Below are positions 6,871-34,765 of a DNA stretch of 64,000 nt, one piece after another (position 1 is the stretch's first letter; each line of letters opens with the position of its first letter). This DNA comes from Lyophyllum atratum (Eukaryota > Basidiomycota > Agaricomycetes > Agaricales > Lyophyllaceae), in assembly GCA_014905825.1 (NCBI GenBank), contig JACGCN010000007.1, positions 1,860,001-1,924,000 of the forward strand, read 5' to 3'. The position numbers and the translations under genes were made by a program. Below the pieces are notes generated by a model. It did no database searches and was not told the DNA's origin. It worked only from the letters and a program-made list of their open reading frames with translations.

Positions 6871-7529
6871 TGGATTGCTCGCTGGTTGCACGCCCCCAAC
6901 ACGTCTTCACGCCTAGGCCAGACACTACACCGTGACTTTATTTGACTTCGGCATGAACTCAAATTTGAAATAGAGAAGTCGGTCGTGGTCCGCCACAGCC
7001 TCCGCGAAACCCAAAAATATGATGGGGGCTGTGCAACCTCCCGCCAACCCTCCCCGACAACCTTGACGTTGCTGTACCCAAAGCGCCGGCGCCAACGTGA
7101 CATGGAACCTCGTTCTGAGCCTTTGTTCTGAGCTCCTCCCCACTGCTATGTGTATGACACCACTGTCTTGCGTCGCCCTTCACCACAGCCTTGCCACTGG
7201 AAGACTCATCTCTACAAGCATCTAGGTTCAATTCTAACCCTGAAGGCCCGGTCATTCCCTTGCCATTTACGTGTCCAATATAGGGGACTTTCCTACAAAC
7301 CAACGTTTCGATCAATGTTCTTTTAGACGAATTGAAGGTGTATGCTGTGCCGAGTCATGTTGATGACTATCGCATCCAGCGGATTCTCGAAGTAGGCTGA
7401 AGCCATTATCCGAGTCGAAACCAGTGTCCGTCACATGTGGCACCACACCCAATGCAATGCTCCCTGGATTTTGAAATGCTTAAAGGTCCGCAACATGGCG
7501 CATTCCCAAGCATTACACCAGTCCAACAC
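6871..7529. other. intergenic region upstream of glycine-rich gene
   Basis: No gene recognised. It should contain the promoter of the gene starting at 7530. A minus-strand frame of about 118 codons (6959-7315) resembles nothing I know. Confidence 0.4.
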
Positions 7530-8576
7530 ATGTTGATTCCTTTCTTCGCTCGATCCGCGCAGAAGAGCACCAAGAGCTTACTTCGCCGAAAGGGTGGTGG
7601 TGGCGGTGGTGGCGGAGGTGGTGGTGGCGGTGGACGAGGCGGCTCAAGCGGAGGTGGGACTCGGGGTGGGACTAACAACTCTGGCACGAAGAGCTCGCCA
7701 GGAGGGAAAAGCGGATCGTCCTTTCCTATAAACTCGGCAGGCAAGCCCTTCAAAGCAAGCCCCTCCAGCAACGGTGGCGGCCCTAAATCTGTCATACCCG
7801 CTAACCAACCGTTTGCCGGCCGTGAGGTCGGCGGAGGCACACGAGGTCAGGTATACGGTACATCGTGAGTTGTAGAACTGGTTGTGAAGACAATAAACTT
7901 ATAGTGTCGCGGTTGTAGAGCTTATGGGAGCGGTTACCCTGGCGTAGCTGGTCGTGGAGTTCAGGGTAGAGGTTTTCCCTTCGTGTTCTATCCAATTGTC
8001 TTCACTGCTCCAGTGGGGGCTGGAGGCTATTATTTGTACCGTGAAGAAGAGGTAAACGACATTCCTTCTTTTTCTAAGCGGCATCCTGACTGTTCAATTT
8101 TCTAGTATGGCAAAGCAGACAATTCTACTCGTCCTGGAGGACCTCTTCGCCAAGTCGCTTTTTCAGGATCCAACTCCACGTTCCATATCGTCTCGGACAA
8201 TACTACAGTCACTTGGCTTCAAACTGCCATCAATGACACTTGCCGCAGCATTAACAGCTTCACTGTATCTCCTCTTCTACCGTATAACTCGTCACAGTCC
8301 CCCTATCCCAGGCCGGAGGAGGCGATTCAGTATTATCGCGCAAGTAGTGTTGTGCTCATGTTGGATGGCTACAATAACACCGCCGCATTTGGGACGGACG
8401 AGACTACTACTCCTGTTCCTCTTCCTCCAAATATCGACATGAAGCTTCTGGCTTGTATCAACCAGACTATCGGCGCTAGCGTTCCCTTAGTGGGCGCCGC
8501 GACATCCTTCTACAATCCATCCCCCTTCCTGTTGCTTTTCGTCGCCTGGATGATTTGGTCTGTGAATTCGCTATAA
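7530..8576 (+). CDS. glycine-rich membrane/surface protein, copy A
   Basis: Exons 7530-7864, 7919-8051 and 8106-8576 splice in phase to 312 aa. The start was chosen because MLIPFF matches MFVPFF of the paralogue at 17.1 kb; an earlier in-frame ATG exists. Order of features: a short basic N-terminus (LLRRK), an uninterrupted run of about 14 glycines followed by Gly/Ser-rich sequence, the conserved block YGSGYPGVAGRG and GRGFPFVF running into a hydrophobic segment, then an ectodomain-like region with several Asn-X-Ser/Thr sites, two cysteines and the block EAIQYYRASS...LDGYNNT, ending in a hydrophobic tail of about 20 residues that could be a GPI signal or membrane anchor. I recognise the pattern as a recurrent Agaricomycete hypothetical family; its function is unknown. 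Confidence 0.85.
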
Positions 8577-11291: not shown

Positions 11292-14200
11292 TTATCGCAG
11301 GCCTAGAAGATCACGGAAGCGGTTGAATGGATCGCGAGGGAGTGGTTTTGTAAAGACGTCGGCGACGTTGTACTTGGTGTTGACATAGCGTATATGGATC
11401 TCGTTAGATTGGACGCGTTCACGAAGGAAATGATATTTGATGTCCACATGTTTGACGCGTGCGTGAAGTAGTGGATCCTCGGAGAGGTTGATCGCGGCGT
11501 TGTTGTCGCATAGGATAGTGGTAGGATCTTTTGAGACGTCATGATCGATTCCTTTGAGTAGGGCGCGCAGCCAGATGCATTCTTGCGCGGCTTCGAACGC
11601 GGCCATGTATTCAGCTTCGCAGGATGAAGCTGCGACTGTCTTCTGCTTCCTCGCCGCCCATGAAACGGCCCCAGAACCTAAGCTCCATACAAAACCACCT
11701 ATACTCCTCCTGGTGTCAAGACAGCTGGCCCAGTCCGAGTCCGTGAAGCCGAGTAGCGAGGTTGAGATATTACCGCCGAGATGTAGCTTTAGTTCGCGTG
11801 TCCCCTTTAGATAACGGACTAATCGTATGGCGGCGTTCCAATGGATGGATGAGTATGAATCGACATATTGGGTGAGTTGTTGCACGGCATAAGAGATATC
11901 GGGGTGCGTGGAGATCGCGAGGTAGAGGAGGCACCCGACGAGAGATCGATAAGGTATCTTGGCGAGTGTGTCCTGCTCCTCCTTAGGTAGAGATGTGCGA
12001 TCAACGCGTCGTAGTTTTAATCCCGGATCCATTGGGAGGGAGATGGGTGCCGCGTCTTTCTGACCGAATTGGTGTATGATCTTATCGATTAGTGCTGTCT
12101 GAGAGAGTTTCACAGACCGATTGGGGAGGTCCCATTCGACGGCGATGCCGACGACGAATCGTGGGGTTCCGAGATCGGAAATAGTCCATACAGTGCGCAT
12201 TTGAGCTTTGAAGCGATCATTCTCGGCTTTGGAACTTGCGATGGAGAGGAAGTCGTCCACATGAACGGCGGCTACAATGGTACCTGAGTCAGCTTTCCGG
12301 TAATAGATGCAGGACTCGCACGCGAGACGCGTGAACCCCCAAGTCAGCATATTGTCGTTGAGCGTTTTGTTCCAGATGCGGCCGCTTTGCTTCATCCCAT
12401 ATAATCCCCTCACTAGACACCATACCCAGTCTTCCTTCCCTGATTCCTCAAATCCTTCCGGTTGTTCCATATATTGGATCTCGTCCTCTGGTAGAAGACC
12501 GTAGAGGAAAGCGGTTTTCACGTCAATCTGTGTCGCGTCCCATCCCTGAGAGGCCGCAAGATGTAAGAGGATTCGCCATGACTCCATACGCGCTGTAGGT
12601 GAGGTGGTCTTCGTGTAATCTCGCCCGTAGACTTGTTCATATCCCTTGAAGACTAGACGGACCTTAAACCGTACAGCCTTCCCATTTTCGTCGCGTTTAA
12701 TTTTGAATATAGGACGGCCTTTGCGTACTTTCTGGCCTTGCGGGACGTCCGATCGAGGGACGAGTTTGTAAACCCCCATTTCCTTCAGCGAGTTGAGTTC
12801 CTCTCTATATCCCTCAGCCCATTTGGCTGCATCTGCGGATGCCTTAGCCTCCGCCCATGTTTTCGGCTCATCCTCAAACTCTATATCCGCCGGATCAATG
12901 CCCCCTGAGTCAATAATAGCTGCAAGGAGTCGATCATGATCGACGTCGAGCCCTAGATCAGGCACGTTCAGCAGATCACGGAGTTCGGAATCCGCTCTGA
13001 CGTCAGGTTCCTCGGCCTGCACGCGTCGTTCCGCTCGCGCTGCCTTCACGCGTTCCGCGCTTTCCTTCGACTCCTGAACTGCACGTTGAGTACGCGTTGG
13101 TGGAGGATTGTCGGGGTTGCTCTTTTCGGTTGGCGTGATTGTTCGGTTAGATCGACGTAAGGGTTCGGGAGCGGGAGGCGCGTTAAGCGGTGGCTCGACG
13201 GGGTCGATGGGTTCCATTGCAGGTGGAATGTTTGGATCATCAACGATGGGTGGTGGTAAGAGGTTGTCGTCATCATTTGCTATGATAGGGATATCGGTCG
13301 AGCCTGTGCGAATTTCTTCGAGGGTCGACGGTTCCGAAACGGTGACGTTGGGGAGAGGAATTTCTGGAGGTAAATGACCATCATGGCTCTCGAGGAATCG
13401 AACATGGTACGATTGGTAGATTTTCTGTGTTTTTCGCTCGTAGCATCGGTAGGTTTTCGAGTTGTGTCCATATCCGATGAGAATACATTCTGTCGAGCGC
13501 TCGAAGAGTTTCGGGTTGTGTTTGTTGATGAGGACAAATGCGCGACACCCTATTTCCCTCATATAGGAGTAGTCAGGCTTACGTTCGTACCAGAGTTCGA
13601 AGGGGGTGAGCCCCTTGAGCGATTTAGTTGCGGTCTTTTCATGAAGGTGCGCCGCAGTGAGATACAGTTCATCCCACAGATTGGGGGGGCATCCCATCGC
13701 AATTCGCATTGTTCGCGCTTTTCCCATGAGCGTGCGATGCATGCGTTCGACGCGCCCCATGTGAGCTGATGTGTAAGGTGCACCCAGTTCCTGTGAAGTC
13801 CCTCGAGATTGTAGCCATTTGTCCATCTCGTGTCCTTTGAGTTCGCCATCAAAGCCGGTGCGATAAATGCCGACTTTGAGTCCCGTTTCCGTTTCCCTAG
13901 CCAGCTCCCATGCTTTTAGGGCTGGAAGGGCGTCCGATTTGAGTCTCATGGGTACTGACCACGCTTTACTGGAATAGTCATCGACAATGTTCATGACATA
14001 TCTATTTCCAGTGCGCGATTCTACAGTCATTGGTCCGGAAAGATCTATCCAGACTTTCTCCAGCTTCCGAGTTGCTCTATGCCCCTTCCCTTCTTCCCGC
14101 ACCTTAGGTACCGGTGTCTTGGTCTGTTTTCCAAGAATACACGCGTCACACTTGGGCGGTTTGGAAGAAAGGAGATTTGGCGTACCTGCGGTACCCGCAA

Positions 14201-15224
14201 GCATGCCTGCCTTCGTCATGTCTATGAGAGTCTGGAAATTGGCATGCCCGAGACGGCGATGCCAAGTTTCGAGATTGACGGCGTGTTGGGTAGTGTAGGC
14301 ATGTTCAGCGAAGGTTGTGAGGACATTGAGCGAATAGAGTCGTTGGTTTGGAAGGAGCGATCCCTCGGCGATGAGAGCGCCGGAGGTGCGATCAATGATC
14401 TTAACTGACTCGTGATCGAAGTGGGCTGCGACGCCGGAGGTGGCTGAGAGAGAGCTGATGGAGATGAGACGGACGGTGGAATTGGGGATGTAGAGCGCGT
14501 CCTTGAGGATGATAGACGCGCCATGATCGAGATTGAGGCGAATGTTGCCGATGCCGACGGCTGCGACTGCTGAGCCGCCGACCCCGCGGATCTGACGAGG
14601 TGGGATATCGCGAAGACTGAGGAAATCTTCACGATTAGGGGATATATGAACCGTTGCGCCGGTGTCGACAAAGAACGGTTGGGCGGTTGTGCTCCTCCTC
14701 TGTTGGAGCGTCATGGTGTCGGCCGTCGCGAGAACAGTTTCCTCGACAGTGGCGACCGGATTCTCGAAGGCGAGGAAGCCATGGTATTCGACTTCCTCAA
14801 TGGACGCGATGCCGGAGTCAGATGCGAGGGAGTCAGATGCGAGGCCGGCGAATTCGGCGGACTTCGCGTCGGTCTGGAGTTTGGTGAGGTGCGCGGGATC
14901 GACGAAGAATGCCTGGCCGTCGCTACCTTTGACGGCTATGTAGGCCTTCGCGTTGCTCCCCTTCTTCTGTTCCTTCCCTTTTCCAACTGGACCGCCGCGC
15001 GCTGCGATCGATTCCGAGATCGTCTTTCCCTCCATTCCTCCTCCTTTCTGAACGCACCACTTCTGTGAGTGACCCCGACACGGCCGTCCCTTCGACTGAC
15101 AAAGAGTGCAGCAGATCGCTCCCGCGCCATGATTGTGGCCCGGGAGGTCGTTCGGATAGGAGCCTTTGGCAACGAGTGCGGTGTCGGACGAGTGGTGGGT
15201 AGATTTGGAATTAGGCAATAGCAT
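11292..15224 (-). CDS. copia pol: zinc knuckle, protease, integrase, RT, RNase H
   Basis: A 1,310-aa frame without interruption. The apparent ATG at 15224 lies inside the nested MITE, so this start is an artefact of the insertion; residues from about 5 on belong to the element. Features: an atypical Cys/His cluster at 38-57 (CCTLC...C...GH...C), aspartic protease site DTGA at 187-190, GAG-pre-integrase HHCC-type zinc region about 322-362 (H...H...CDAC), integrase core with acidic residues at about D394, D459 and E493, reverse transcriptase about 835-1080 with catalytic HVDD at 988-991 (YVDD in many relatives), and RNase H with TDSDWA, SSCEAEY and DNNAAI. All catalytic residues seem present. 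Translation of this half in the current copy is doubtful because the promoter-proximal gag frame stops in the MITE. Confidence 0.93.
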   Translation of the reverse strand: MLLPNSKSTHHSSDTALVAKGSYPNDLPGHNHGAGAICCTLCQSKGRPCRGHSQKWCVQKGGGMEGKTISESIAARGGPVGKGKEQKKGSNAKAYIAVKGSDGQAFFVDPAHLTKLQTDAKSAEFAGLASDSLASDSGIASIEEVEYHGFLAFENPVATVEETVLATADTMTLQQRRSTTAQPFFVDTGATVHISPNREDFLSLRDIPPRQIRGVGGSAVAAVGIGNIRLNLDHGASIILKDALYIPNSTVRLISISSLSATSGVAAHFDHESVKIIDRTSGALIAEGSLLPNQRLYSLNVLTTFAEHAYTTQHAVNLETWHRRLGHANFQTLIDMTKAGMLAGTAGTPNLLSSKPPKCDACILGKQTKTPVPKVREEGKGHRATRKLEKVWIDLSGPMTVESRTGNRYVMNIVDDYSSKAWSVPMRLKSDALPALKAWELARETETGLKVGIYRTGFDGELKGHEMDKWLQSRGTSQELGAPYTSAHMGRVERMHRTLMGKARTMRIAMGCPPNLWDELYLTAAHLHEKTATKSLKGLTPFELWYERKPDYSYMREIGCRAFVLINKHNPKLFERSTECILIGYGHNSKTYRCYERKTQKIYQSYHVRFLESHDGHLPPEIPLPNVTVSEPSTLEEIRTGSTDIPIIANDDDNLLPPPIVDDPNIPPAMEPIDPVEPPLNAPPAPEPLRRSNRTITPTEKSNPDNPPPTRTQRAVQESKESAERVKAARAERRVQAEEPDVRADSELRDLLNVPDLGLDVDHDRLLAAIIDSGGIDPADIEFEDEPKTWAEAKASADAAKWAEGYREELNSLKEMGVYKLVPRSDVPQGQKVRKGRPIFKIKRDENGKAVRFKVRLVFKGYEQVYGRDYTKTTSPTARMESWRILLHLAASQGWDATQIDVKTAFLYGLLPEDEIQYMEQPEGFEESGKEDWVWCLVRGLYGMKQSGRIWNKTLNDNMLTWGFTRLACESCIYYRKADSGTIVAAVHVDDFLSIASSKAENDRFKAQMRTVWTISDLGTPRFVVGIAVEWDLPNRSVKLSQTALIDKIIHQFGQKDAAPISLPMDPGLKLRRVDRTSLPKEEQDTLAKIPYRSLVGCLLYLAISTHPDISYAVQQLTQYVDSYSSIHWNAAIRLVRYLKGTRELKLHLGGNISTSLLGFTDSDWASCLDTRRSIGGFVWSLGSGAVSWAARKQKTVAASSCEAEYMAAFEAAQECIWLRALLKGIDHDVSKDPTTILCDNNAAINLSEDPLLHARVKHVDIKYHFLRERVQSNEIHIRYVNTKYNVADVFTKPLPRDPFNRFRDLLGLR

Positions 15225-15541
15225 GGGTAACCCCTGGGTATTTCAGCACCGACCCATACCCATACCCATGGACACCCATACCCATAACCCATGTGGGTTT
15301 ACCCATAAATCTGAGCCTTGATTGGCTCAAATAGGTCAGGTAGTGCCAAAGATATGATCAAAACGATGAGTTTTGATGTTCTTGATCATGTCCTAGCTAG
15401 TATCCGTCTATTTGACCAATCCTAGGCCTGTCTAAGGCTTATGTGCAAGCTCATGGGTACAGCAATGCCAACCCATACCCATACCCACATGTACCCATAC
15501 CCACGACCCACCATGGGTTTGAAAACCCATGCTATTCCCTA
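15212..15541. mobile_element. hAT-like MITE nested in copia gag-pol
   Basis: A 330-bp element. Its 17-bp terminal inverted repeats are TAGGCAATAGCATGGGT at the left and, in complement, TAGGGAATAGCATGGGT at the right (16 of 17 match). It is flanked by an exact 8-bp duplication TTTGGAAT at 15204-15211 and 15542-15549. An 8-bp duplication and TAGGG-type ends are the hallmark of hAT transposons. Both subterminal regions contain many copies of ACCCAT/CCCATA hexamers, which may be transposase binding sites. No coding capacity is seen. The first three bases of the right inverted repeat, read on the minus strand, supply the TAG that ends gag, and 338 bp (element plus one duplication) shifts the frame. 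Confidence 0.9.
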
Positions 15542-16784: not shown

Positions 16785-17101
16785 AATTTCTCATCCTTCC
16801 ATGAAGCTGCGTGCTCCTTTCGGCGTCGGTTTGGGATAATAGGTCAGGGAAACAAGAAGAACGTCACTGACGAAGCAGTGATCTACTAAAATCAGATCTA
16901 ATCGAACCGTGGGAAATGCGGGGCTGTGCGATTTTAACTCCATCGATTACTGCCAAGCTTGATATAAGTAGTCGCTGTAAAATCGGATGGCTGACAATAC
17001 CAAGCATTCCCTTCCTTCGACCCAGTCCATTCATAGGGTATGTCCTGCCATAATACATTTTTCGACATTCCCAACCCGTTTGCCAGGTATAAGACTCGGA
17101 A
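16785..17101. other. upstream region of glycine-rich copy B
   Basis: 317 bp between the copia target duplication and the start of copy B. It should contain at least part of the promoter of copy B, so the retrotransposon landed just upstream of this gene. Nothing else is seen. Confidence 0.5.
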
Positions 17102-18118
17102 ATGTTCGTTCCCTTCTTCTCAGTACGATCCGACAAAAAGGCAAGGAAACTATATCGAAGAAAGGGCGGTGGAGGAGGTGGGAAAGGAGGTGGAGGAGGT
17201 GGGAAGTCAGGCGGCTCAACTGGTGGAACAGGCTCAAGCGGTGCTGGCCGATCTACTCCTATAAGTTCAGGTGGTTCCTCCAAGAGCGCGACGTCGTTTG
17301 GACCGGGGGGCGGAAAGTCTGCGCCCATTCCGGCTGGTCAGCCATTTGCAGGTCGTGACTCCGGCGGCGCTACGAGAGGTCAGGTTTATGGAAACCAGTA
17401 TGTTTGGTATCCTTCTGAGGTGGAACTACGAACTCACCCCCGTTATTCTAGGCAGTACGGTAGCGGGTACCCAGGAGTTGCCGGCCGGGGCGTTGCTGGA
17501 CGCGGATTCCCCTTCGTATTCTGGCCTCTTGCTTGGGGAGGAGTGGGTGGCATTGGTGCCGCTGCGTACTTGCACAATTCAGAGGTGAAACAGAAATACT
17601 CCGCTCCGTCGAAATACTAATGTTCCTCATTTCTTCAGTATGGTCGACCTAACAATAGCAGTCGACCAGGAGGCCCTATGGCTGCTGCAGCTTTCGTTTC
17701 AAGCACAGGCAACACGACGTATCGCATTCTCTCGGACAACACAACCATTATTGCATTGATTAGTCATATCAAGGACGCCTGCTCTTCCAATTTGAACAAT
17801 GGCTCTAGCTCCTCAGCCCCATCACCCTACCAGGACTCGTTCTCTGCCATTCCCCAACCGGAACAGACTATCCAATATTATCGAGCAAGCTCGATTGCAC
17901 TGACTCTCGATGGCTACAATAACACCGGCGCCCTCGGACCTGACGGAACGGCCGACACTCCCCTGCCCAATAATATTGACACGAATCTTCTGACCTGTCT
18001 TAACCAAACAATCGGAGATGCAGCTCCTCTCATCGGCGGCGTACCTGGTCTCTCTGTGCCGAGCATGGGCCTTTTGGGCCTGCTCTGGGTCCTGTGGTCT
18101 TTCTCGTCCTTGTTCTAA
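17102..18118 (+). CDS. glycine-rich membrane/surface protein, copy B
   Basis: Exons 17102-17397, 17452-17584 and 17639-18118 splice to 302 aa. The middle exon is 133 nt in both copies A and B, and both introns are at the same positions. Intron 1 is 54 bp without a stop, so retention would add 18 residues; homology to copy A supports splicing. The protein has a basic start (KLYRRK), a Gly/Lys/Ser-rich stretch, then YGSGYPGVAGRG, GRGFPFVFW and a hydrophobic glycine-rich segment, SRPGGPM, several Asn-X-Thr sites, TIQYYRASS, LDGYNNTG, a second cysteine and a hydrophobic C-terminal tail (about 18 residues) that could be a GPI signal. No classical N-terminal signal peptide is seen. Function unknown; probably a membrane or wall-associated protein. 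Confidence 0.87.
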
Positions 18119-23647: not shown

Positions 23648-24409
23648 GGGTGCTCAGCAGGACGCGCCAAGTCCTAGCAGTGAGTCTTCAACTTCAAGGA
23701 AAAGAAGGGCGCTTCAAGGAGGGCATGCCAAGGATGCCGGAGTAATGGTGGATGAGAGAAAAGGGAGGAAAAGGGGGGCGGCATCGCCCAGATTGATGAG
23801 ATCAACGTAAAAATGAAATGGGGTTAAAAAAACACCCGGTTGTGTCATTCGTTATTATGACGACAAATTGAAAATCGCTGAAATCGTGAAGGTTTGGTAG
23901 GTTTTCTGTCAACATACCTTGTGAGTTATTCTACGCTTTGGCCCTGTCCAGCCCAGGATATTCCAAGGCAGCATCTTAGTTATAGAGCGATAAACCAACC
24001 CTAGCTTTACGTAGTGACTTCCACCAACCAGATATGATGTCGTACTATTGGCGGATGAAAAAGCTGGATTCTGAGATATTCCGAGGTGCTAAGAACAAGA
24101 GATTCGCCAGGTTTTTGAAGATTAGGAACACGACATGCAAAGGTCCACGGAGAGAGATAACGAGGTGGAATGTGAGAAATCGTAGAGCCGTCAACCCTGA
24201 TCTCTGGTTCCTGGCGTGTCTCCGCATCTCGAGGTGTCATCGCCGACTTCCAAGTCGTTACATAGGAAGTCCAAAGACGACCAATCCAGAATGGAAGAGG
24301 ATGGCAATGTGTAGATAGTACTAGATGAAGGTGGAAGGCGACAGCAGAGCTGTGGGCTGCAGACTCAAACAAAGGCAAATTTGATCTCTTCCGTTCCGAC
24401 CGTCACAGC
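23648..24409. other. divergent intergenic region
   Basis: It lies between the starts of the membrane-protein gene (minus) and the dihydrofolate synthase gene (plus), so it probably holds both promoters. No gene is recognised. Confidence 0.5.
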
Positions 24410-25864
24410 ATGTCTATTGACCTCAGTTTAGACAGACTTCAGCGTCTGGTGCAACACTTACCGCCATATACGCGTCCAACCTTTCATATCGCAGGCACGA
24501 ACGGCAAAGGCAGTGTCTCTGCGATCCTCACGTCCATCTTGCGAAATTCGTCACCTCCTCTATCCGTTGGACGGTACAATAGCCCACATCTCGTGTCTAT
24601 TTATGACTGCATCGTGATCAATGGCCAGCCAGTCGAGCCAGATGTTTACGCCACCGCGAGAGCGTATATCGAACGCGTCGATAAAGAACAAGGCACGCGA
24701 CTCAGCAGTTTTGAGCTACTCACGTTGACAGCATTCTTCGTGTTCGAGGAGGCGAAGCTGGATTTTGTCGTGCTCGAGGTGGGCATGGGAGGTCGTTTGG
24801 ACGCAACGAATATCATATCGGACGAGTCAGTGCTTGTTTCGGCATTAACAGCGGTTGACCTTGACCATCAAACGTTGTTGGGGAATACTGTGGTCGATAT
24901 CGGGAAGGAGAAGGCTGGGATTGCTAGGAAAGGACGCCCATTTGTCCTCGGCCCTCAGAAGCACGCTGAGGTAGAAGGCGCAGTCAAGGAAGTGGTAGGG
25001 AGGATAGACGGGGATCTTGTATCTTCCCTGCGGGTGGAGAAGCGCGACTGGGATTATGCAACTGATGGCCCTCAGGAGTCAGCCTTCACTTTGAAATCGG
25101 GGTCTCGTTTCATGGGACCGCCTCCCCAGCCTGTAAAGGTCTATATGCCCTGCTTCTCTCAAGACCTGCATGCCCTACTTCCGCTTTACGGTGATCACCA
25201 AACCGATAATTTGGGGGTCGCTGTCACTGCAATTTCCCTGCTTTTGACGCATCCCTCGTGCGCGCACCATGACCTATGCGCTCGGATAACACCTGAGACC
25301 GTCGTTCGAGGGATTAGGTCTGTACATTGGCCAGGACGGCTTTCGTTCCACGCGATTCCAGCTGAACCCTCGAATCGAATACTCCGGCCGCTCGCGGTAC
25401 TTGCAGACGGTGCTCACAACCCTGCCTCTTCGACCACCTTGGGAGCATACATTAGCCACCTCCTCTCCCTCATCGATCATGATACGCCCATCAACCTCAC
25501 CTATATCGTGTCCCTCTCGCACTCCCCCCCAAAAACACCTCTCCAGACGCTGTCGCCGATCCTTTCACCCGCATTACCGTCAGGGTCTACCTTGAAAGTC
25601 AACGTCAACGTTGCCTGTCTGAGATTTACCCCACCAGAGGGAATGCCATGGGTGAAGTCTGTGGCGCCTTCAGATCTCCGTGAAGTGGTGAGCGCACTCG
25701 TCCCGCACGCGGGAGTTTGGGTCGCCGATGAAGGGTCTCCTGATCAACTGGCAAAGGCACTGCAATGGGCGGCCGAAAGGGAAGGAGACGGACTGGTCAT
25801 CGTCGCGGGAAGTCTATACCTAGTCGCCGATTTCTACCGATTTCTGGGACAAGTAGCGGTCTAG
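24410..25864 (+). CDS. FOL3: dihydrofolate synthase (FOL3-like Mur ligase family)
   Basis: A single-exon frame of 484 aa, unusual in this intron-rich region. The ATP-binding P-loop GTNGKGS is at residues 29-35 in IAGTNGKGSVSA. It is followed by YNSPHLVSIYDCI, the family motif LEVGMGGRLDATNI near 125-140, DHQTLLGNTVVDIGKEKAGI (the lysine likely carbamylated in relatives) and ADGAHNPASS in the C-terminal domain. The short N-terminus without a presequence (MSIDLSLDRL) resembles yeast Fol3 rather than folylpolyglutamate synthase Met7. The enzyme ligates dihydropteroate and glutamate with ATP to make dihydrofolate in the cytosol. Folylpolyglutamate synthase is the alternative, less likely, assignment. 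Confidence 0.88.
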   Translation: MSIDLSLDRLQRLVQHLPPYTRPTFHIAGTNGKGSVSAILTSILRNSSPPLSVGRYNSPHLVSIYDCIVINGQPVEPDVYATARAYIERVDKEQGTRLSSFELLTLTAFFVFEEAKLDFVVLEVGMGGRLDATNIISDESVLVSALTAVDLDHQTLLGNTVVDIGKEKAGIARKGRPFVLGPQKHAEVEGAVKEVVGRIDGDLVSSLRVEKRDWDYATDGPQESAFTLKSGSRFMGPPPQPVKVYMPCFSQDLHALLPLYGDHQTDNLGVAVTAISLLLTHPSCAHHDLCARITPETVVRGIRSVHWPGRLSFHAIPAEPSNRILRPLAVLADGAHNPASSTTLGAYISHLLSLIDHDTPINLTYIVSLSHSPPKTPLQTLSPILSPALPSGSTLKVNVNVACLRFTPPEGMPWVKSVAPSDLREVVSALVPHAGVWVADEGSPDQLAKALQWAAEREGDGLVIVAGSLYLVADFYRFLGQVAV

Positions 25865-27944: not shown

Positions 27945-28530
27945 CTACTTCCACGGAGGTGCGTCGGTGGCATCGTCAGCACGTTTCCACGTCGGGGCGT
28001 CGATGGCAGGGTCAGTACGCCTCCACGTTGGTGCATCGACGGCATCGTTGGTACGCCTCCACGTTGGTGCATCGACGGCATCGTTGGTACGCTTCCACCC
28101 AGGTGCGTCGGTGGCACCGTCAGCACGTTTCCACCCAGGTGCGTCTGTGGCATCCTCAGCACGTTTCCAGGGAGGTGCGTCGGTGGCATCGTTGGTACGC
28201 TTCCAGGGAGGTGCGTCGGTGGCATCGTCAGTACGCTTCCAGGGAGGTGCGTCAGTGGCATCGCCACCACGCTTCCACGTAGGCGCATCGATAGCATCGC
28301 CGGTACGCTTCCATGGAGGAGCGGGGCTGACCTGAATAGGAAGGGTACGTTAGATAAGGTCGCGATATGCGAAACCAGATTGCATACGTGGGATGTGACA
28401 TCCTAGGGGATAGCTCAGGTCAGCGCAAAGCTCTATCAATGTAACGTGGCAGACTACTCACAGCGACAGGTGCAGCGCTAACAGCGACGAAGAGGGAGGC
28501 GAAGATGCAGATAAGGGTATCAGTGCGCAT
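27945..28530 (-). CDS. secreted Kex2-processed repeat peptide precursor (KEP-like)
   Basis: Three exons on the minus strand: 28462-28530, 28388-28402 (15 nt) and 27945-28331. The introns are 59 and 56 bp, with gtgagt/gtatgc donors and CTGAC/CTAAC branch-like sites. They encode 156 aa. If the 15-nt exon is skipped the frame is kept (151 aa). The N-terminus is a clear signal peptide (hydrophobic core LICIFASLFVAV, cleavage likely after AVSA). The rest is APPWKR followed by ten 12-residue units of pattern [T/A/G]-x-x-A-[T/I/V]-D-A-P-[T/P/G]-W-[K/R]-R, the last ending WK and stop. Each unit ends in a dibasic site cut by Kex2 in the Golgi, so the product would be about ten related decapeptides such as TDDATDAPPW and TNDAVDAPTW. 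The underlying DNA is a 36-bp minisatellite. There is no CAAX end, so it is not a basidiomycete lipopeptide pheromone. Confidence 0.85.
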
Positions 28531-28594: not shown

Positions 28595-28600
28595 TATATA
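28595..28600 (-). promoter_or_regulatory. TATA box of repeat-peptide gene
   Basis: TATATA on the minus strand about 65 bp before the ATG at 28530, a spacing that allows a transcription start with a short leader. It supports the minus-strand model over the open plus-strand frames. Confidence 0.6.
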
Positions 28601-33072: not shown

Positions 33073-34765
33073 CTACGCACGCATCATCCCCGCCATATCA
33101 TAATGCTCCCCCCCAAACCCCTCCCCAAACATCCCGCTCGGCTGGAACAAGCTCTCCAAGCCCTGCCCCTGGCCCTGAAGCTGACACCCCATCCCCAGCT
33201 CCACCTCCTGCGCCGCCATCGGGTCAAAGTCCAGCCCCAGCCCCGCCTCAACCGCGAACCCCTGATGCGGATCACTGGTGAACGACCCGCTCCCGAACTC
33301 CTTCCACATGTCCGTGAACACCGTGTTGGTGCCCGGTGCGGACTGCGGCTGGGGCGCGTGGAGGATGGGGGCGTCGGAGGGGGTGGGGGAGCCGGAGTAC
33401 GCTGTGGAGGGGTGGGAGGACTGGTCATTCGGCTGGGACTGCGAAGGATATGTGGAGTCGGCGTGCATCCAGGAGGAGAGCGGGTCGAGCTCGGGTAGGG
33501 AGGAGGAGGCGGAGGCGGTGGAGTACATGTTGTGGTTTTGGTGGAACGTTTCGTGGGGGGCGATGTTGTCTAGAGGTCCGAATGCGTTTTGGTCGTGATG
33601 ATGCTGTTGGTGGGTCATGTTCATGTTCATGTTCATATTCGGGTTGAAGTGGTCGTCGTTGTACATGCCAGGGAAGGAGAAGCTGGAGCCCGCGCCTTCT
33701 AGGAAGCTCGGGTTGAAGAGGGACGTATCGACCTCGAGGAGGGGGGATTCGTCGCGTTGAAGCATGGACGGCATGGGCATCGTCCAGGAACGGTTGAGCA
33801 TGGCCGGGCGGGCGCTGGAGGCGCGGCGGTTGCCGAGCATCATGCGCTGCTGTTGCCACGCCAGGGAGTTTCTCTGGGACGGGGGAAGCGACGACATAAA
33901 CGGGGCAGTCGGAAGAGCGATGTCGCCGAAATGGTGGGGGTAGAAGTCGTTCGGAAGGGGGACGGACGAGGAACGGCGGTGTTGGAAGAGTGGGGCGCGG
34001 ACCGGTGTGTCCGCGCGCATGAGGTCGAGGCTGCGGACGGCGGCGGCGAGCTCGTCACCCTTCTTGCCTTCGAGTAGGAGCTGTGCGACCTCTTCGCAGC
34101 GTCGTTCGTCCTCTACGGTCGTGACGGGCTTCTCCTTCTTCTTCTCCTTGTTCTTGTTGTGCACGGGGCGGAAACGATACTCGGGATACCGCGCCTTGTG
34201 CTCCGCCTTTGCGTGCTTCGCCTTGACTTCCCACACCTTTTTCTCCTCCAGAGGCAGTGCTCGCCAGCAGTTGCCTGGGTACGGGTAAGCACGGCGATAC
34301 AAGGTGATGAAGAGAACAGTGCACACCAATAATTTTGGAGAGCGATCCATGGTTGGTCTCTATCGTCCCCGGGACATGCTTCTGACGCACAAAATCGGCG
34401 CGGAAGAGCATGAAGGCGTTCGGCGGTCTCGGAATGTAACCCATCGAACGGCGCTTCCCCGGCGGTACCCGTCTCCGCGTTGGCGGCGGCGCCGGTGTCT
34501 CTGAGGGTGGAAATATGGCGGAAGTGGGCGAGCCAGGCTCGGGTGTGGATGAGGATGAGCAGGCGTCGGGGTCGACGAACGACACGGGCGTCACGTTGGG
34601 CGCGAACGTCACTGGACGTCCAATTCCATAAATCCCAGCTCTGACGGGGTTGAACGAGGTCACTGGGGGTAAGTGTCAATCCTATACACAAGCCTCCTGT
34701 TCTGATCGCGACTCACAGATGGCTAACGATGAACGTCTCCTACGCGAAAGACGTACAGCAGGCAT
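33073..34765 (-). CDS. HMG-box transcription factor
   Basis: Three exons: 34717-34765, 34327-34662 and 33073-34274. The introns are 54 and 52 bp, with joins in phase, for 528 aa. I chose the ATG at 34765 because exon 2 has no in-frame ATG before the HMG box and the gtgagt/cccccag pair restores a clean N-terminus (MPAVRLSRRRRSSLAI). The HMG box lies at about residues 90-160: YIPRPPNAFMLFRADF, SLSKIIGNCWRAL, EKKVWEVKAKHAKAEHK, YPEYRFRP. The second intron falls inside the box, between SKIIG and NCW. The C-terminal region is Ser/Pro/His/Asn-rich with short Met-Asn repeats (MNMNMNMT), as in activation regions. It is a nuclear DNA-binding regulator related to the one at the window start; the targets are unknown. 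Confidence 0.9.

Follow-up and report, generated by a model that had tools for sequence, protein, structure and literature searches.

Two surveys of Kex2-processed repeat proteins (KEPs) cover basidiomycetes (Le Marquer et al., 2019, PMC6339444; Umemura, 2020, PMC7329392). STE13 motifs and an XSDW motif were described in basidiomycete KEPs in the former, where receptors for such KEPs were also raised (PMC6339444); in the latter, DUF3328 neighbours were reported for only 103 of 1680 basidiomycete KEPs (PMC7329392). KEPs of C. cinerea were expressed in Pichia, and mushrooms were searched by mass spectrometry, by Vogt et al., 2022 (PMC9769878). KEP 490115 yielded QYKAPSW and QMRPPSW in Pichia, KEP 447393 yielded GPPAPSW and DDDPEGPPAPSW in C. 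cinerea supernatant, and peptides of shiitake and oyster mushroom were found by mass spectrometry to end in AADW (e.g., SGTGEASAADW, SGVAADW) (PMC9769878). STE13 motifs were stated to occur in many basidiomycete KEPs, as were cores whose last residue is tryptophan, and the mushroom KEP peptides detected were concluded to be linear, with minimal modification (PMC9769878). That report suggests that they take part in biotic interactions; it describes six C. cinerea KEP knockouts (including 490115) as having no phenotype and the tested peptides as having no antibacterial activity (PMC9769878).

The gene described here lies in the window, by which is meant the whole 64,000-nucleotide stretch analysed (contig C119 of a 64.8-Mb fungal assembly, C119:1860001-1924000). 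Like C. cinerea KEPs 490115 and 447393 as reported (PMC9769878), it is predicted to encode a secreted precursor with dibasic sites and P-x-W ends, the free C-terminal Trp having been seen by mass spectrometry for the C. cinerea peptides. Compared by description, it differs from the published C. cinerea KEPs in its uniform, ten-fold acidic decapeptides, its DAPxW end and its lack of a STE13 motif, and a paralog in the same genome fits the reported C-terminal-Trp KEPs of C. cinerea more closely than the window gene does. The peptides of KEP 2599 (shiitake) and KEP 1091723 (oyster mushroom) resemble its predicted products as repeated, linear, Trp-ended Kex2 peptides (PMC9769878), but their ends are AADW, not P-x-W, and the Pleurotus precursors are reported to carry STE13 motifs; KEP 2599 is described with no mention of one (PMC9769878). 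Because C-terminal-tryptophan KEPs have been described in mushrooms by Vogt et al. (PMC9769878), the window gene belongs to a known kind, of which, as judged from its sequence, it is a STE13-less variant; the STE13 motif is reported for many members of this kind but does not define it.

Two further published groups were compared and set aside as the family of the window gene. Umemura type G-1 (49 genera, mostly mushrooms; PMC7329392) was rejected, being described as Tyr-rich where none of the ten window units contains Tyr; the XSDW motif of Le Marquer et al. (PMC6339444), as given there, marks a neighbouring kind with a different core. Ascomycete alpha-factor precursors, as generally known and as described in part by Le Marquer et al. 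(PMC6339444), hold tandem peptides between dibasic sites, and the paralog likewise has EAEA spacers behind its dibasic sites; their core, however, is unrelated, and the window gene has no STE13 motif. Dikaritin (ustiloxin-type) precursors have Kex2 repeats in common with the window gene and a signal peptide such as is predicted for it; the window gene by contrast has no Tyr in its units and no UstYa match on the contigs that carry it. As whole words, DAPPW, DAPTW and GPPEW occurred in none of the papers listed by a literature search. When the literature was searched for DAPPW, DAPTW, DAPGW, GPPEW and GTPAW, none of the matches listed concerned KEPs or mushroom peptides as judged by title, a result to be read with the proviso that supplements and figures may hold the core. 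The DAPxW core appears to be new.

Predicted gene structure and surroundings

A three-exon gene with a product of 156 residues was predicted on the minus strand at 28530-27945 from the sequence and a splice model. Exon 1 (28462-28530) contains the ATG and a signal peptide, MRTDTLICIFASLFVAVSAAPVA, predicted from the splice model and hydropathy; the start of the protein is hydrophobic (LICIFASLFV; best 10-residue hydropathy 2.99), as is that of the paralog. It is followed by predicted intron 1 (28403-28461; 59 nt, GTGAGT..CTGAC..TAG), exon 2 (28388-28402; 15 nt, encoding DVTSH) and intron 2 (28332-28387; 56 nt, GTATGC..CTAAC..CAG), both introns being of the GT..AG type with a CTGAC or CTAAC branch-like site. 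Exon 3 (27945-28331) encodes a partial unit, VSPAPPWKR, ten 12-residue units and the stop codon TAG. All of these features are on the minus strand, as is a TATA-like box (28595-28600) about 70 nt upstream of the ATG; the paralog has one 57 nt upstream.

A model with a single 130-nt intron (151 aa) is a possible alternative that fits less well and leaves the repeats unaffected. The two-intron model was preferred because its introns are short (59 and 56 nt) and have branch-like sites of their own, because the paralog has the same layout, and because APVAD, which spans the predicted exon junction, recurs in a Volvariella relative (P0003). The 15-nt exon that the earlier note had proposed was thus retained in the better of the two splice models. 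The 151-aa form was used as query in the first homology search of proteins, and the 156-aa form in later comparisons. Pfam searches of the window protein, the paralog and eight relatives returned sub-threshold matches only (best, RDM3_C at 19.9 and 22.1 bits against a cut-off of 35).

Several other features were recorded in the window. Two similar ORF pairs on the plus strand (7401-8576 and 17093-18118) share QPFAGRxxGGxTRGQVYG and IQYYRASSxxLxLDGYNNT, and three of their four ORFs were searched against Pfam with no match. The pairs flank a Copia-type retroelement polyprotein on the minus strand (11292-15242; open frame of 1316 aa, RVT_2 and other pol domains). An open frame of 511 aa on the plus strand (24329-25864) had no Pfam match at E 0.001, although its start, TNGKGSVSA, resembles folylpolyglutamate synthases. 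On the minus strand at 33073-34675, about 4.5 kb from the peptide gene, lies an HMG-box-like gene, in which the second half of the HMG_box domain was matched at 24.7 bits (cut-off 25.4) and is apparently split by an intron.

Repeat array and coding constraint

Tandem Repeats Finder reported a 36-nt unit in 10.4 copies at 27948-28323. Read in the minus frame, the array consists of ten 36-nt units (27945-28304), each encoding a decapeptide and a dibasic Kex2 site of the form xxxA[TIV]DAP[TPG]W-[KR]R. W-[KR]-R closes nine of the units, and W-K-stop closes the tenth. The array, strand and coordinates given in the earlier note were thereby borne out; its count of ten 12-residue units stands, and its statement that every one ends in W-[K/R]-R applies to nine of them. 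With the partial unit that precedes the array, there are 11 Trp-ended segments in total. Ten KR or RR sites are found beyond residue 20 of the protein, each of them preceded by P-x-W. The protein ends in APPWK and, in agreement with the same note, has no C-terminal CAAX box.

Residues A4, D6, A7, P8 and W10 are invariant across units, while the codons for A, D and P vary. Pairwise comparison of core codons between units gave 70 synonymous and 0 non-synonymous differences; at the variable positions (1, 2, 3, 5 and 9) pN/pS was 1.06. This is the distribution of a near-fixed A-x-D-A-P-x-W core and variable remaining positions that had been noticed beforehand. Whole columns were then shuffled over codon positions in the nine distinct units, and 35 of 5000 shuffles reached as few amino-acid differences as were observed (112, against a mean of 155), fewer than chance would give. 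These statistics are descriptive, since the core positions were picked post hoc and the units are related by duplication and are not independent. Coding constraint is visible in the minus frame, and the same frame is common to the paralog and the relatives.

Comparison of the two genome copies

We treated a second copy of the gene, on contig C93, as belonging to the other haplotype; its flank shows about 94% identity along 1291 bases. This copy encodes the window protein with one residue change, S to G, close to the end of the signal peptide, and its decapeptides are identical to those of C119. No difference was found in the 387 nt of exon 3, the 15 nt of exon 2 or the 59 nt of intron 1; exon 1 differs at 3/69 positions (one of the three substitutions being S to G) and intron 2 at 4/56. 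Flanks of about 1 kb differ at 20 and 47 positions, gaps aside. Between the copies no difference occurs from 28339 to 27944, a stretch that starts 8 nt before exon 3 and stops one base past the stop codon, and the nearest differences on either side are at 28340 (9 nt before exon 3) and 27943 (2 nt after the stop codon).

Flanks and introns together differ at 71 of 2070 ungapped positions, a rate that predicts 13 changes for exon 3 (Fisher P 7.4e-6; 7.7e-6 if a rounder total of 2115 positions is used). At silent sites of exon 3, 0 changes were observed and 3.1 expected (P about 0.04). Most of the identity of exon 3 between the copies is explained by coding constraint. Gene conversion or chance may lie behind part of it, since the silent sites are identical too and intron 1 is likewise free of differences.

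A STE13-type paralog in the same genome

The genome was searched with the repeat exon, which gave three matches (the window copy, the C93 copy and a locus on C141), and with the pattern W[KR]R followed by PxW[KR]R, which matched at 57 places against 7 for the reversed control pattern. Runs of the pattern were confined to the window gene (C119, C93) and a paralog (C141, C98). Further copies may exist, since the repeat-exon search missed the C98 copy that the pattern search caught. The paralog copies are at C141:1409191 and C98:53552 and have the three-exon layout of the window gene, with both introns in phase 0 (57 and 53/56 nt) and an exon 2 of 54 nt. The encoded protein runs from MRITSLIL..ATPA (exon 1) through THAVIARHTEEARELAAA (exon 2) to REPGPPTWKR. 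Units like EAEAGPPEWKR and EAGAGTPAWRR come next, and the last residues before the stop codon are PPGW. The two copies (181 and 159 residues) are two 11-residue units apart and have several residue changes besides; the window array is identical between its copies. Among window ORFs of at least 70 aa at 15-42 kb, which were compared with the 30 kb around the paralog for local duplication, the repeat exon alone matched. The promoters of the two genes share, possibly by chance, three overlapping 9-mers and one more within 500 bases.

The 11-residue units of the paralog (EAEA-GPPEW-KR) carry an alpha-factor-like STE13 motif, with X-Ala present twice at 11 of 12 unit starts in the C141 copy. X-Ala or X-Pro starts none of the ten window units. 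Ala is at residue 4 in all ten, which is the position of the second X-Ala of the paralog. The third residue of the paralog cores is Pro in the C141 copy, and the C98 copy has one GTSGW. Pro as third residue would block further trimming by dipeptidyl peptidase.

Relatives in other fungi

Three protein searches with E up to 1 gave 4, 7 and 15 hits, or 19 distinct proteins; in the last two, scoring was limited to the 7999 and 7993 candidates sharing most words. When only searches with a query free of the protein in question are counted, twelve of the 19 reach E <= 1e-3; seven are weaker (P0004, P0009, P0010 and P0016-P0019). Proteins of Mycena (9e-7) and Volvariella (2e-5) were hit directly by the window protein; the paralog and profile searches added Termitomyces, Lyophyllum, Favolaschia and others. 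Species names are attached to 12 of the 19: Mycena (4 proteins, 3 names), Volvariella volvacea, Termitomyces, Lyophyllum shimeji, Pholiota molesta, Arthromyces matolae, Favolaschia claudopus, Leucocoprinus birnbaumii and Candolleomyces efflorescens. All 12 are Agaricales (by taxonomy, Mycena via one species; Termitomyces belongs to this order), and the Agaricomycete origin assumed at the outset fits these names.

Taken over the 19 relatives, the window protein and the paralog, Trp stands immediately before 107 of the 129 dibasic sites located beyond residue 20, and P-x-W before 102; 11 of the 21 proteins end exactly at Trp, and four more end within 3 residues of it. The Trp and P-x-W shares are inflated because the searches were seeded with such words, and the Trp ending is less affected. 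Against the paralog the window protein reached up to 59 bits, and against two relatives 54 and 50 bits; 60 queries with permuted unit positions, run to control for repeat composition, stayed at or below 27 bits against the relatives and paralog. Eight of 20 targets (the paralog and seven relatives) exceed this control, and the remaining relatives are linked to the window gene via the paralog or the profile. STE13-type starts among the relatives range from none to all units.

Processing and modification enzymes

Enzymes and receptors in the genome were counted as exon-level matches. The kexin-type P domain gave four matches, as adjacent pairs on two contigs, and DPPIV-type enzymes gave six on two contigs; S10 peptidases, OPT and STE3 gave 45, 98 and 41 matches, respectively. 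A genome search for STE2 gave no match, and neither did its controls. Together with the array, the paralog and the relatives, the processing-enzyme matches support the reading of the gene as a putative secreted Kex2-type repeat precursor, which had been advanced on the array and signal peptide.

UstYa (PF11807) gave 13 exon-level matches, on C94, C68, C130, C1 and C65. In this six-frame, exon-by-exon search, in which best candidates only were taken, 0 of 13 matches were on C119, C93, C141 or C98. The comparison with cyclic dikaritins drawn in the earlier note therefore gains no support for the window gene.

Two loci elsewhere in the genome were noted in passing. Three of the UstYa matches (L001-L003) lie within 10 kb on C94 (C94:209306-219253), a possible RiPP cluster, and no KEP-like repeat was found within 30 kb by a simple, crude dibasic scan. 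At C1:2006292-2006338 (L055) there is a possible short gene of the ADW kind, whose hydrophobic start, MLLSTRSFAILSLIFAVAVSALPG, lies a short distance upstream of DWKR-SEDLGNGPADWKR; it resembles shiitake and oyster-mushroom peptides of the AADW type, has two sites only, and was found with a pattern that gave 11 matches against 8 for the reversed control.

Alternative readings

The array might be a minisatellite that is open in several frames through its 36-nt period and has no protein product. Since 36 is divisible by 3, the period keeps four of the six frames free of internal stops across exon 3, so that an open frame by itself is no proof of coding, and plus frame 1 shares its wobble positions with the minus frame, which it almost equals in self-similarity (0.63-0.74 against 0.66-0.74). 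The signal-peptide exon, splice sites, paralog and relatives nevertheless agree with the minus frame, the core codon changes are silent only, and the stretch without allelic change coincides with exon boundaries, which together make this reading highly improbable. We regard it as unlikely that the gene is a source of structural or surface peptides like Ustilago Rep1, with repeats that assemble on hyphae and do not signal: the Kex2-repeat layout is common to both and the high copy number per precursor suits bulk material, but the units are short and acidic with Pro near the end, and related peptides were reported free in culture supernatant (PMC9769878).

A dikaritin-type precursor, from which the units would be excised and then cyclised through Trp by UstYa-family oxidases, would share the layout of the window precursor, and the genome does hold the 13 UstYa matches, three of them close together on C94. 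None of these best-candidate matches is on a contig of the window gene or its paralog, however, the units have no Tyr, DUF3328 neighbours were reported to be rare for basidiomycete KEPs (103/1680; PMC7329392), and the mushroom KEP peptides detected were described as linear and minimally modified (PMC9769878). Cyclisation of the window peptides is unlikely, and a dikaritin-type origin as a whole is judged very unlikely. The precursor layout, with the EAEA STE13 motif at 11 of 12 unit starts of the paralog, would also suit a hidden alpha-type mating pheromone of basidiomycetes that is sensed by a STE2-like receptor. STE3 is the usual basidiomycete receptor for lipopeptide pheromones, and 41 STE3 matches were found in the genome. 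Given also that the STE13 motif is in 0/10 window units and that both genome copies encode the same decapeptides, unlike a mating-type signal, hardly any probability is assigned to such a pheromone, even though receptors for such KEPs were raised by Le Marquer et al. (PMC6339444).

Discussion

It is probable, in our assessment, that the window gene encodes a secreted precursor, cut by Kex2 and Kex1, of about ten linear acidic decapeptides that end in Pro-x-Trp and serve as extracellular signals. Sequence, repeats, constraint, paralog and relatives were computed, and from these we infer splicing, secretion, cleavage, linearity and role. By its predicted signal peptide the precursor would enter the secretory pathway, where it would be cut by Kex2 behind every KR or RR, and a Kex1-type carboxypeptidase would remove the basic pair to leave a free C-terminal Trp. 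Because no window unit begins with X-Ala or X-Pro, trimming by STE13 is not expected, and the products would be untrimmed decapeptides such as TDDATDAPPW; the EAEA spacers of the paralog would be trimmed to give pentapeptides such as GPPEW. Calculated [M+H]+ values of the linear forms are 1088.453 (TDDATDAPPW), 1087.469 (TNDATDAPPW), 1089.485 (TNDAVDAPTW), 1046.479 (TGDAIDAPTW), 1086.510 (TDPAIDAPTW) and 1032.427 (AEDATDAPGW) for the window gene, and 585.267 (GPPEW) and 531.256 (GTPAW) for the paralog; cyclised forms would be lighter by 2.016 or 18.011. The released peptides, probably unmodified, would act in signalling or biotic interaction.

A possible model of action is the quorum-sensing peptide Qsp1 of Cryptococcus, which ends in Trp and is not known to be made as a Kex2 repeat array. 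Qsp1 is likewise described as a short secreted basidiomycete peptide with proteolytic maturation, but the protease responsible, Pqp1, acts on it extracellularly (PMC7537855); the likeness is one of description. A role as linear extracellular signalling or biotic-interaction peptides is most likely for the window products. Signalling stays unproven because the C. cinerea KEP knockouts were reported to lack a phenotype and the tested peptides to lack antibacterial activity (PMC9769878).

More speculatively, and with considerable doubt, the two genes may represent a two-branch peptide-hormone family of the Agaricales, in which a free Pro-x-Trp C-terminus would be the shared address, read by a yet-unfound receptor or importer. 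The STE13-type branch would release pentapeptides, and the STE13-less branch of the window gene would release acidic decapeptides in which the fixed DAPxW end carries the signal and is kept the same in the two nuclei of the dikaryon, with the first three residues left free.

To the C-terminal-Trp KEPs described so far, this locus adds a DAPxW core, a paralog of the STE13 type, a splice model that includes an exon of 15 nt, and exact masses for the predicted peptides. The C-terminal Pro-x-Trp end is likely to be the active part. The paralog and the calculated masses make the question of what Trp-ended KEPs do a testable one.
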